A stretch of 64,000 nucleotides of DNA from Rahnella sikkimica (GTDB lineage: Bacteria; Pseudomonadota; Gammaproteobacteria; Enterobacterales; Enterobacteriaceae), in contig NZ_CP019062.1 in assembly GCF_002951615.1 (NCBI RefSeq), positions 3,534,001-3,598,000 on the forward strand. The letters run 5' to 3'. Made by a program: the position numbers and the translations under genes. Within the stretch, counting starts at the first letter, position 1, and the number at the start of each line of letters is the position of its first letter. Positions 51,890 to 54,979 of this stretch are shown here, in pieces. Below the pieces are notes generated by a model, which did not search any database, was not told the origin of the DNA, and was given only the letters and a program-made list of their open reading frames with translations.

Positions 51890-51997
51890 AAAGAATTTTC
51901 CGGCGACCTTGCTTATTTCGCTTAAAAACCGTTCAGACGTGTCAGATGAATGTGGAATTGAGTTTACGGGGGAGAGTTTGAAAGAAAATTACAGCAT

Positions 51998-52007
51998 GGG
52001 GGGGGGG
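51998..52007. repeat. Poly-G tract of ten
   Basis: Ten consecutive G (C on the other strand) lie 47 bp beyond the avcD stop codon. The surrounding 51900-52050 has only a short non-family ORF (51876-52064). Such tracts slip during replication; no gene start or promoter spacing obviously depends on it. Confidence 0.9.
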
Positions 52008-52053
52008 TTGAGACTACAGGATTTGCAGCCTCATGGACGGCTTCTCAAATTCG

Positions 52054-53595
52054 CTAAGAAGTGATTTCTTCACCAATTTTTGTGGTCACATTTTGGACGA
52101 CTTTAAGCTCGAAATCCGTATAGCTGTCCATTTGCTGGGAATCAACATGATGTGAGCTATCAACGTCATAAGTAATCACTTTTCCATTGGCATCTTTACG
52201 ATCCCGGCTATAGCCGAAAAACTTGCTATAGCGTCTCGGCGCCGTCCCTTCAAAGATATCAAAAATGACTTTATTACTTTTGTCCTGAGCATCTGAACCC
52301 GTGATGGAATCACCGTGCAGATCTTCAGCCAAACTCTTCGCGTAGGGTTCAATATAAACAACCCGTTTTATCCCGGCAGCAACGATGTGCCGCGCGCAAT
52401 TATGGCAAGGATAAGTCGTGCAATATAAAATCTTACCCAGCGTATATCCTCTTGAGGATCTTGATACCGAAGTAATAGCATCCATTTCTGCATGAATTGC
52501 TCTTGAGTATTCAATTAACGATTTCAACTTAGTGGTTTTCATTATCTCTTCAGCAAGCTTTTTTTCATTTCCGACGTTAAAATCTTCTAATACTTTTTCA
52601 ATTTCACGCTTAACAAGTTTTTTATGCTGGTCATTGTGACAACCTCCGTTAGCATAACAACGTTTATCAGCGCTGCCACTTTCACAGGAATAAAGCCCAC
52701 CGCCAGCCACAGGCACGTCATTACATCCTGTAGCTAAGAGATTGTGGTTTTCATCCATAATTGCGGCACCAACCTGTCGCGAGAGACAGGCAGAACGTAA
52801 TGAGGCCGAGTTAGCATTAAACATACCGGTTTCATCACGCGTCGGCGTCAGATTATTGGCACCGTGGACAAGATCGACAAACCGGATAACGGACTGATCG
52901 AGCCAAAGGTCGTTGGTATTATGAATAAAATAATCTGAAGAATGCAGTGTATCCTCTACCTGCTGACCATATTTGTACGCAGAACGCCGGTCACGGTTAA
53001 TCACCTCATTAATTTCATTATCATTCAAAGAGTCTTTCTTTAAGTTATTACGTCTTTCTTTTAGCGACCTGATTAATCCGATGAGGTAGAAGTTATTTCG
53101 ATAAACTTCACGTAATAATTCGATTTCAGCAGGATGCTTTAACTGATCGATGATATAAGCAACTTTATTGGTCGTCTTACCCGACGTCCCTTCGATCCGC
53201 CCTTGTTCTAATAACTTGTCGCGCAGGTACCTGATATTCCTGATCGCCATTTGAGCAGCTATCATTGAACCATACTTATCCCTGAGCGCATCGCCTAAAT
53301 CTTGTAGCTGTATAAAATGCCCGGAACCGTCCAGAGCTTTAAGCGATTGGGCCCGCTCTGCACCCTGAGTTCCAATCATTAAATCGCTGATACGGATATG
53401 CTCAACGTGATAATGGCAACTTTTCAAACGTGCGATTAACTTGTCTTTTAAAGTTCGGATCCCGGAACCACTTGCTCCGCATAACCCAAGAATAAGCTCC
53501 TGAGAACGTCTTGATAAAATAGAATCGATACTGTCATCTTCGGCAGAACGTTTTGAGCCTGCAATAGGGACAATTTTATTTGCTGAAACAGCCAT
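52054..53595 (-). CDS. avcD: Anti-phage deoxycytidine nucleotide deaminase (AvcD-like)
   Basis: A 513-residue two-domain protein. The N-terminal part (about 30-260) is a P-loop kinase-like domain: ELILGLCGASGSGIRTLKDKLI with GASGSG as Walker A. The C-terminal part (about 265-500) is a zinc cytidine/dCMP deaminase domain: LSRQVGAAIMDENHNLLATGCNDVP, catalytic HAEMDAI, and PCHNCARHIVAAGIKRVVYIEPYAKSLA with the zinc CxxC. An additional Cys/His insert (CESGSADKRCYANGGCHNDQH) is typical of AvcD/DCD defence proteins, which drain dCTP/dCMP during infection. Length is close to Vibrio AvcD (about 530). TTGGAG precedes the ATG. A small ORF lies just upstream in the avcI position. Composition is AT-richer than the flanking mtl and dsb-like genes. 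Confidence 0.88.
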   Translation of the reverse strand: MAVSANKIVPIAGSKRSAEDDSIDSILSRRSQELILGLCGASGSGIRTLKDKLIARLKSCHYHVEHIRISDLMIGTQGAERAQSLKALDGSGHFIQLQDLGDALRDKYGSMIAAQMAIRNIRYLRDKLLEQGRIEGTSGKTTNKVAYIIDQLKHPAEIELLREVYRNNFYLIGLIRSLKERRNNLKKDSLNDNEINEVINRDRRSAYKYGQQVEDTLHSSDYFIHNTNDLWLDQSVIRFVDLVHGANNLTPTRDETGMFNANSASLRSACLSRQVGAAIMDENHNLLATGCNDVPVAGGGLYSCESGSADKRCYANGGCHNDQHKKLVKREIEKVLEDFNVGNEKKLAEEIMKTTKLKSLIEYSRAIHAEMDAITSVSRSSRGYTLGKILYCTTYPCHNCARHIVAAGIKRVVYIEPYAKSLAEDLHGDSITGSDAQDKSNKVIFDIFEGTAPRRYSKFFGYSRDRKDANGKVITYDVDSSHHVDSQQMDSYTDFELKVVQNVTTKIGEEITS

Positions 53596-53628
53596 AGAAA
53601 CTCCAATGACTGGACAGGCAGGGCGGGA

Positions 53629-53808
53629 TTACCAGTCGAGTTTAGCGGCAGCTTCCTGCACTCGTGCTTTAGCTCTCTCATACGCAGCAAACTCTTGCCG
53701 AGCAGACAGCTCAATAACCTGAGGCGAACCCGACGTTTCTGATACTCCCGGTTCTTTATCCTGCTTACTTTTTTTCAGCGCAGCATACTCAGCAAATTGA
53801 ACAATCAT
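53629..53808 (-). CDS. avcI: 59-residue ORF in the avcI antitoxin position
   Basis: The ORF reads MIVQFAEYAALKKSKQ, then a polar middle (DKEPGVSETSGSPQVIEL), then an amphipathic helix-like end (SARQEFAAYERAKARVQEAAAKLDW). GGA lies 9 nt before the ATG, and the stop is 33 bp before the avcD start, so both are on one transcript. In Vibrio the avcI locus upstream of avcD is reported as an RNA antitoxin that keeps the deaminase inactive until phage shuts down transcription, and that locus is also said to hold a short ORF. Whether RNA or peptide acts here is open. It could also be an unrelated small gene. Confidence 0.6.
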   Translation of the reverse strand: MIVQFAEYAALKKSKQDKEPGVSETSGSPQVIELSARQEFAAYERAKARVQEAAAKLDW

Positions 53809-53933
53809 TAGCTATCCATGTAGTCGGTAAAAGATTGGGGAACTCTGATGCCAGATCCAACGAATCAGAGGTTGCTTCACAGGGATAAATATCCATGAAG
53901 AAGGCAAGGTTACCACGGCGAAAACAATGAAAC

Positions 53934-53949
53934 GGGTAAAAATTTACCC
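53934..53949. promoter_or_regulatory. Inverted repeat upstream of the AvcID cassette
   Basis: GGGTAAA-AA-TTTACCC is a perfect 7-bp dyad about 125 bp before the small ORF. It may be an operator or part of the untranslated avcI RNA leader. Neighbouring 53870-53881 (GGATAAATATCC) is also palindromic. Confidence 0.4.
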
Positions 53950-54005
53950 CTTTCAGACATTACATCCAATATTGAGAAGTGCTTTCCAAACCGGGGGAAA
54001 AGAGC

Positions 54006-54029
54006 ATCCGGCAGCACAGGCTGCCGGAT
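54006..54029 (-). terminator. Terminator of the dsbA-like gene
   Basis: ATCCGGCAGC-4 nt-GCTGCCGGAT has perfect 10-bp arms, and on the minus strand is followed by a short U-rich stretch (GCTCTTTTCC). It lies 16 bp after the dsbA-like stop codon, isolating it from the defence cassette. Confidence 0.85.
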
Positions 54030-54045
54030 TGAGATTGATGAGAAA

Positions 54046-54840
54046 TTACTTCCCGCCTTGCGCCTTAACAATCGCGCCCTGCAGTTCTTCGGCGGAAACA
54101 GCGCCCGGAAGCACGGTGGTGTTTTCTGCCGTTGCGCCGCTGGTTGGCATCACGACAAAACCAGGTGTACCGCTGAAGCCCAGCGTGCGGGCCAGTTCGT
54201 CGTTGGAGGCAATAGCTTCATGCGTGGCTTTACGCTGTGCATCAGTCGGCGGGGTGGCTTTGGCCGCTTTCACCGCACCGGCGATATCGGCATCGGTCAG
54301 TTTACCCTCGTCATGGCCGGTACGATAAATGCTGTTGTGGTAGTCGAAGTACGCCTGCGCGCCCTTCTCTTTCCAGATCGCCATACCGGTTTCTGCCGCC
54401 GTGATGGACGCTTTCCAGCGGTCACCGAAGATTGGCCATTCTTTGAAGACGAAACGAACGTTCGGATTCGCTTTCACCGTCTGTTCAACCACCGGTGCCA
54501 TGCGGCTGCAATACAGACACTGATAATCGAAGAATTCCACGAAAGCTACTTTGGCATCTTTCGGGCCGTAGCTTGGCGTGGCAGGATCTTCAACCAGTGC
54601 TTTTGAATTGGCCAGAACGGCGCTCAGGGTTTCCTGTTGCTGCTGATCGGCCTGCTTCGCCTGAAGTTTCTGGCTGACCTGCACCAGAATTTCAGGATGC
54701 TGAAGCATGTAATCAGCTGCAATTTTACCAATGGCTTCCTGTTGCGCCGGGGTGAAATCTGCCGTTGCGCTGTCGGCGGCGTTGGCCAGCGCAGGTGCCA
54801 GCACCAGAGAAGCCAACAGAGTCATCGTCTGACGTTTCAT
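54046..54840 (-). CDS. DsbA-family periplasmic thiol oxidoreductase (ScsC/BcfH-like)
   Basis: A 264-residue secreted protein. The signal peptide is MKRQTMTLLASLVLAPALANA (cleaved before ADSAT). An N-terminal helical stalk, TPAQQEAIGKIAADYMLQHPEILVQVSQKLQAKQADQQQQ, is like the trimerisation stalk of ScsC/BcfH. The thioredoxin-fold domain has active site CLYC in FVEFFDYQCLYCSRMAPVV and cis-Pro in FSGTPGFVVMP. It likely shuffles disulfides in the periplasm and may support copper or oxidative stress tolerance. A TTG codon directly before the ATG is not needed as start. No scs partner genes are adjacent. Confidence 0.87.
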   Translation of the reverse strand: MKRQTMTLLASLVLAPALANAADSATADFTPAQQEAIGKIAADYMLQHPEILVQVSQKLQAKQADQQQQETLSAVLANSKALVEDPATPSYGPKDAKVAFVEFFDYQCLYCSRMAPVVEQTVKANPNVRFVFKEWPIFGDRWKASITAAETGMAIWKEKGAQAYFDYHNSIYRTGHDEGKLTDADIAGAVKAAKATPPTDAQRKATHEAIASNDELARTLGFSGTPGFVVMPTSGATAENTTVLPGAVSAEELQGAIVKAQGGK

Positions 54841-54979
54841 CAAAAATCCTTAAAGTAAAATACGGGAGGGGTAATCGGACAGTTGCCTTCAAAAGTAGAG
54901 GAATTCAGCAGAGTTTGCAGGTTAAAAATTGTCATTTTTTATAAATATAACGCCATTGATACCTGTATTTTCCCAACAA

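Follow-up and report, generated by a model that had tools for sequence, protein, structure and literature searches.

A conserved small protein gene beside avcD in Rahnella sikkimica, a proposed partner and probable antitoxin of the anti-phage deaminase AvcD

The AvcID systems of Vibrio cholerae, Vibrio parahaemolyticus and enterotoxigenic Escherichia coli (ETEC) combine a deaminase, AvcD, with avcI, which is located upstream of avcD (Hsueh et al.; PMC10511110). AvcI is described as a noncoding RNA that is ~280 nucleotides (nt) long, needs at least ~171 bases to function and inhibits the toxin directly, and formation of the RNA is stated to need study (PMC10511110). When overexpressed, AvcD impairs replication of the genome, and its toxicity is relieved by overexpressing avcI in trans, which counts against a purely cis role for avcI (PMC10511110). 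Neither 'ORF' nor 'open reading frame' nor 'start codon' appears in the main text of that article, and other articles restate the RNA view or just mention the system by name (PMC12409362, PMC9455884, PMC9934689, PMC11676413, PMC10653837). No protein partner of AvcD was found among the titles and abstract openings of a partial literature collection. Type III antitoxin RNAs, the class to which AvcI is assigned, are defined by tandem repeats, and toxins of the ToxN type are RNases. The subject of this report is an avcD locus of the same deaminase family in Rahnella sikkimica, contained in a 64,000-nt stretch of contig NZ_CP019062.1 (assembly GCF_002951615.1, forward-strand positions 3,534,001 to 3,598,000; referred to as the window and numbered from its first letter), in which a 59-codon open reading frame (ORF) lies just upstream of avcD.

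By position, the published avcI region corresponds to this 59-amino-acid (aa) ORF, which is under purifying selection as a protein; the region described elsewhere as a noncoding RNA is here a conserved protein gene. An earlier note on this DNA, made from the sequence alone, had pointed out a complete ORF 33 bp before avcD, and such an ORF is indeed present, running from ATG to TAA on the minus strand (Table 1). The ribosome-binding site mentioned in the same note has a Shine-Dalgarno sequence that is weak in the window copy (..ATGGATAGCTAATG) and many relatives have a stronger one. It is misleading to regard the ORF as standing in place of the RNA antitoxin, as the note did, given that an ORF of this kind normally accompanies avcD in the branch of the AvcD tree that holds the window copy, the ETEC H10407 plasmid included; what the note observed is real and applies more widely than it held. 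The interpretation favored here, which appears reasonably probable, is that AvcD has a small protein partner encoded by this ORF and that the ORF and avcD together make up a two-gene anti-phage module. The partner protein is probably the antitoxin of AvcD.

Codon tests were used to compare synonymous with nonsynonymous change, as the earlier note had suggested, and protein-level conservation was seen in Rahnella as well as in other upstream and downstream pairs. For six ungapped Rahnella pairs, which come from five sequences and are not independent, the ratio of nonsynonymous to synonymous change was 0.35-0.41 when expressed as proportions (pN/pS) and 0.16-0.31 when expressed as rates (dN/dS), while the shifted frames yielded 0.82-1.94. 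When the same changes were placed at random, the observed amino acid identity was reached in 26 of 2000 trials for one of these pairs and in 0 of 2000 for the other five. Of 20 further upstream pairs, drawn from several lineages, 19 had a pN/pS below 1 and the remaining one had no synonymous change; for 14 of the 20, no more than 7 of 1000 random placements did as well. Fifteen extra pairs (eight with the ORF downstream of avcD, seven with it upstream) included 14 with at most 9 of 500 random placements and one that was uninformative. For pairs with gaps, the alignment was made in the coding frame and so favors that frame, a bias from which the ungapped Rahnella pairs are free. A search of a protein collection yielded eight relatives of the window ORF, every one of them 59 aa long, as entries that carry no genomic context. 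As in type II toxin-antitoxin systems, the codon tests indicate that the candidate antitoxin gene encodes a protein.

The distribution of the ORF was followed across AvcD loci taken from genome contigs (the best 80 of 513), to which plasmid, whole-genome and viral loci were added. A first tally, with some duplicates, placed an ORF ending in tryptophan just upstream of avcD in 46 of 109 entries. Among 149 unique loci, which still hold near-identical ones (e.g., L010/L011/L012, L023/L225 and L159/L160), a Trp-ending ORF is upstream in 46 (L081 is doubtful) and downstream in 13; as background, 120 of the 3182 ORFs of 48-95 aa in these loci end in TGG, a count that partly includes the partner ORFs. 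An AvcD tree of 123 rows (quick method, LG+G4, midpoint root) was built after 26 of the 149 loci, at <35% identity, had been left out, and the window branch in it comprises 56 rows with a support of 93. An ORF is directly upstream of avcD in 54 of these 56 rows and ends in Trp in 46 of them, the rows being divided into 46 W-type, 5 D-type, 3 with other upstream ORFs and 2 in which the contig is cut there. The ETEC D-type forms a single clade within the branch. On the ETEC H10407 plasmid, which we take to be the locus of the authors of the published AvcID work, a 61-aa ORF annotated as hypothetical lies 12 nt upstream of avcD, and one E. coli chromosomal avcD also has such an ORF, without annotation. 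Homologues of the 59-aa ORF are likewise annotated as hypothetical proteins at some loci and lack annotation at others. Leave-clade-out profiles recovered 37 of 54 held-out ORFs at E < 0.01 from 5023 background ORFs. When the upstream profile was applied to 51 added loci, eight matches at E < 0.01 were found upstream of avcD (L156, L225, L157, L159, L160, L165, L223 and L226), six of them with ORFs new to the profile, since the L156 ORF is the same as profile member L087 and the L225 ORF is nearly that of L023. Weaker matches were obtained at L224 (upstream) and L161 (downstream).

The background used in the leave-clade-out searches itself contained partner ORFs, and its strongest matches were ORFs located directly downstream of avcD at loci that have no upstream ORF. 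The W-type (upstream) profile matched ORFs downstream of avcD in seven loci at E < 0.01, and a survey of all loci gave 35 downstream partners; the choice of these 35 and the labeling of the tree were made by hand from place and the look of the C-terminus, before the clamp-like motif described below had been noticed. By the first-ATG rule, the start of 18 of the 35 precedes the last base of the avcD stop codon. Protein-level selection was seen in 8 of 8 downstream pairs, with pN/pS of 0.29-0.60 (L085 is used in three of the pairs, and three pairs have at least 10 gaps). Related downstream ORFs occur in clades neighboring the window branch and in deeper ones, and at least two switches between the upstream and downstream arrangements are required on the 123-row tree. 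Since the protein motif is kept while the gene changes sides, an RNA of the 5' leader cannot by itself explain it. The same change of side bears on whether the ORF is a regulatory leader peptide, the translation of which, with its conserved terminal Trp, would control avcD expression in cis. A location just upstream of avcD, a conserved C-terminus and a short spacer would all suit such a role, but with related ORFs downstream of avcD in other clades and an avcI region that acts in trans (PMC10511110), it is highly improbable. A different small ORF with a WPxWK motif is found downstream of avcD in seven rows of a deeper AvcD clade (L098, L112, L113, L115, L116, L014 and L119) and looks like a separate family.

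As in type II systems, the ORF is genetically linked to one toxin family, as judged from searches for orphan copies that are sensitive to close relatives only. The window ORF as query found matches in 7 of 59 relatives and in 4 of 392 family genomes (the sets overlap), and every match adjoins avcD except that in G010, where a deletion joins remnants of the ORF and avcD. In the G010 scar (L007/L021, G010:C19), the initial portion of the ORF (aligned up to residue 50) is fused to the end of avcD (residues 457-512); this genome also carries another avcD, the distant L014. No match to the window ORF was obtained when plasmids were searched. A class-wide search with an alignment of the ORF found 1 of 369 genomes, that of the window itself, which says little because AvcD was above cut-off in 3 of the 369, the other two at low identity, and the loose first pass is insensitive to short divergent proteins.

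An allele swap provides one case in which the two genes moved together. Between G012 (L002/L009) and G005 (L003/L010), the leader and the first ~12 codons of the ORF match at 98-100% for most of their extent; further on, identity falls to 33-80% across the remainder of the ORF and avcD before recovering in the flank, the side of the DsbA-like gene being 80-90% identical. The breakpoint is near codon 12-13, inside the ORF, and so the ORF body moved in the same exchange as avcD. The locus shares with type II toxin-antitoxin systems a small protein gene accompanying the gene for a toxic enzyme, an order that varies by subgroup and an allele exchange that moved both genes, but it differs in that the window ORF has no recognized antitoxin or DNA-binding domain and in that inhibition by the protein is a proposal made here. 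Linkage and co-exchange would also fit a co-effector, that is, a small protein needed for assembly, targeting or phage sensing by AvcD and not for inhibition, and the clamp-like motif in downstream partners suggests targeting. Given that AvcD is toxic to genome replication when overexpressed and that avcI overexpression relieves this in trans (PMC10511110), such a co-effector is unlikely.

Several observations weigh against a protein partner that inhibits AvcD. Northern analysis, rifampicin and spectinomycin treatments and data on complexes favor an RNA antitoxin, with AvcI lost and AvcD activated on rifampicin and not on spectinomycin (PMC10511110). A labile protein antitoxin is expected to be lost when translation stops, and the spectinomycin result therefore argues against a labile protein alone, which sets AvcID apart from type II systems. 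The original 2022 AvcID paper reportedly tested a small ORF by start-codon mutation and kept the RNA interpretation. Among the 20 further upstream pairs, six were non-significant, mostly close pairs with few changes, and for the pair L111-L121 the value in a shifted frame (0.38) was lower than that in the coding frame (0.70). The window ORF has no match in Pfam, NCBIfam, PADLOC or PDB sequences, and ten of its relatives match no family above cut-off. Neither an upstream nor a downstream ORF is seen in 18 of the 123 rows of the AvcD tree, 7 more rows have a different one, and no partner was recognized at the 26 of 149 loci under 35% AvcD identity. When held out, D-type ORFs (0 of 4) and Xanthomonas-type ORFs (0 of 5) were not recovered at E < 0.01, so that their homology rests on place and look.

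The published Northern, rifampicin/spectinomycin and complex data speak for a type III system as described, with an antitoxin that consists of nothing but RNA and an ORF that is incidental or a mere marker. AvcID is like the ToxIN-like systems in that an RNA antitoxin has been claimed for it and in that the region concerned is upstream of the toxin gene, but it differs in having a deaminase as toxin, an ORF conserved as a protein, and neither tandem repeats nor a terminator. No tandem repeats were found within 53400-54100, and a simple consensus scan detected no terminator between 53629 and 53595; no terminator is predicted between avcI and avcD of the published systems either (PMC10511110). 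With protein-level selection in many lineages and downstream placement in other clades added to this, an antitoxin of RNA alone is quite improbable. The earlier note had offered three readings, one of which, that the ORF only marks the RNA, is rejected on the codon tests and the change of side and is contradicted as well by the recovery of divergent homologues with protein profiles. A peptide antitoxin and a dual function, the other two, are both compatible with the data.

The dual function would take the form of a bifunctional antitoxin, with one transcript serving as the AvcI RNA that acts on AvcD and also coding for a protein that aids control or assembly of AvcD. Such an antitoxin would join the published RNA evidence to the protein-level selection. 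In 5 of 9 upstream pairs, but in 0 of 4 downstream ones, the ORF has a lower synonymous divergence than any AvcD window of the same length, which is compatible with an added nucleic-acid constraint in upstream ORFs. Recombination at the 5' end of the ORF can lower synonymous divergence, however, and may explain part of this difference; after the first 13 codons are dropped, 4 of 9 upstream and 0 of 4 downstream pairs remain below every AvcD window. Folding of the leader plus ORF is no better than that of shuffles (z -1.18), nor is that of the ORF alone (z -0.89), and an Rfam scan of the whole window gave no match at gathering score. Covariation is slight (a term of -1.18 in -52.5 kcal/mol), and a special RNA fold in the leader plus ORF is unsupported. 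A bifunctional antitoxin is nonetheless a real possibility, short of probable, and overlaps with the partner-protein interpretation, the dual case being included in both. Regarding the leader, the earlier note had reported palindromes at 53934-53949 and 53870-53881. The former is real, with 13-nt arms (53928-53940 and 53943-53955) that are 92% complementary; across six Rahnella copies, one of its base pairs is changed on both sides in one copy and disrupted in two, and in the window copy the outermost pair of the consensus is disrupted. The latter is not palindromic when read and is not among the inverted repeats found, the hairpin-like arms near it being at 53843-53849 and 53864-53870 and within 53876-53901.

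A protein partner explains the selection, the change of side and the co-exchange, which an RNA of the 5' leader alone does not. For this protein we infer a level of translation, binding to AvcD, inhibition, and release on phage infection. The partner would use its conserved C-terminal helix and terminal Trp to bind AvcD, keeping the deaminase off. Shut-off of host gene expression by a phage would then result in loss of the inhibitor, and the freed AvcD would deplete deoxycytidine tri- and monophosphate (dCTP/dCMP). In the upstream arrangement, the mRNA of the ORF, or the 5' part of an avcI-avcD transcript, may be the published AvcI RNA, and the antitoxin may act as protein, RNA or both.

Downstream partners often possess a motif like that of sliding-clamp binders, Q[LM]x[LF]x0-2[LF] within the first 45 residues, which is present in 22 of the 35 (QLSLDF, QLSLPL, QMPLF and alike; 6 of 13 Trp-ending partners and 16 of 22 others) compared with 40 of 3303 background ORFs and a shuffle mean of 0.23 of 35. 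For upstream ORFs, it occurs in 5 of 8 of the 'other' type and in 0 of 46 of the W/D-type. QLSLPL is the peptide of Hda that is required for clamp binding (PMC3836487); the 22 downstream partners are alike in this respect, whereas the window ORF contains no QLSLPL or QL[SD]LF-like peptide of the kind by which a clamp-binding family would be recognized. Judged from the letters of the motif, downstream partners may bind the clamp. Ten of 21 further viral loci (three re-fetched contigs included) have a downstream ORF by the same rule, and the motif is found in two of these (L243 and L247), both of which look by eye like the partner type, as the other eight do not. Loci of the downstream type that bear the motif include L085, L101, L099, L161, L243 and L247; at L241, an avcD relative on a viral contig, the reading frame from the match start ends early. 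The toxin SocB binds the clamp, the binder there being the toxin and not its partner. For a link of the clamp with antitoxins or dCTP deaminases, a partial literature collection yielded a single review. A wider proposal, tentative and doubtful as it stands, is that AvcD was ancestrally paired with a small protein bearing a peptide that binds the replication sliding clamp and that placed the enzyme or its inhibitor at the replisome to sense or hit phage replication, and that one clade moved the gene before avcD and lost the clamp peptide, its mRNA doubling there as the AvcI RNA, which would make it a bifunctional RNA-plus-protein antitoxin and not type III.

The features of the window locus are listed in Table 1. 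AvcD scores 482.7 bits against NF041025, the NCBIfam family of anti-phage dCTP deaminases, and thus passes its curated cut-off of 400, and it also matches PADLOC dCTPase (E 6e-174). The avcD ATG is at 53595, and the ORF and avcD share one frame, with 11 codons from the ORF stop to this ATG. On the minus strand, the order is a DsbA-like gene (54046-54843), the leader, the 59-aa ORF, 33 nt, avcD, and then genes recognized as those of the mannitol operon, presumably mtlA and mtlD. The leader is 74-76% identical to five other Rahnella copies over the 146-148 nt adjoining the ORF. In 7 of 7 searched Rahnella genomes without avcID, 55-78 nt replace a segment of ~2.04 kb, the flanks of the empty site being at about 51994-52002 and 54041-54045, which indicates that leader, ORF and avcD are gained or lost as one unit. 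A terminator-like stem-loop on the minus strand (54006-54029) follows the DsbA-like gene just upstream of the leader.

Table 1. Features of the avcD locus, in window coordinates
Feature	Position	Strand	Basis
59-aa ORF, proposed AvcD partner protein (proposed protein antitoxin)	53629..53808	-	reading frame, homologues, codon tests, profile
avcD, anti-phage dCTP/dCMP deaminase, 513 aa	52054..53595	-	NCBIfam and PADLOC profiles, tree
Spacer, 33 nt, from ORF stop to avcD start	53596..53628	-	sequence; no terminator found inside
Conserved leader 5' of the ORF, proposed promoter/5' untranslated region	53809..53990	-	Rahnella comparison; function inferred
Palindrome in leader, 13-nt arms	53928..53955	.	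inverted-repeat search
Second hairpin-like element in leader	53876..53901	-	sequence reading
Segment of ~2.04 kb (avcD, ORF and leader), absent from avcID-less Rahnella	52003..54040	.	empty-site comparison

AvcID is currently described as a type III system, and if avcI codes for a conserved partner, the way in which AvcD is silenced and released would need to be re-tested. The 'RNA-only' antidote of AvcD may also, or instead, be a small protein. If so, new AvcD loci should be cloned with the small ORF, whether upstream or downstream. A clamp-binding partner, if confirmed, would tie a nucleotide-depleting defense directly to the replication machinery.
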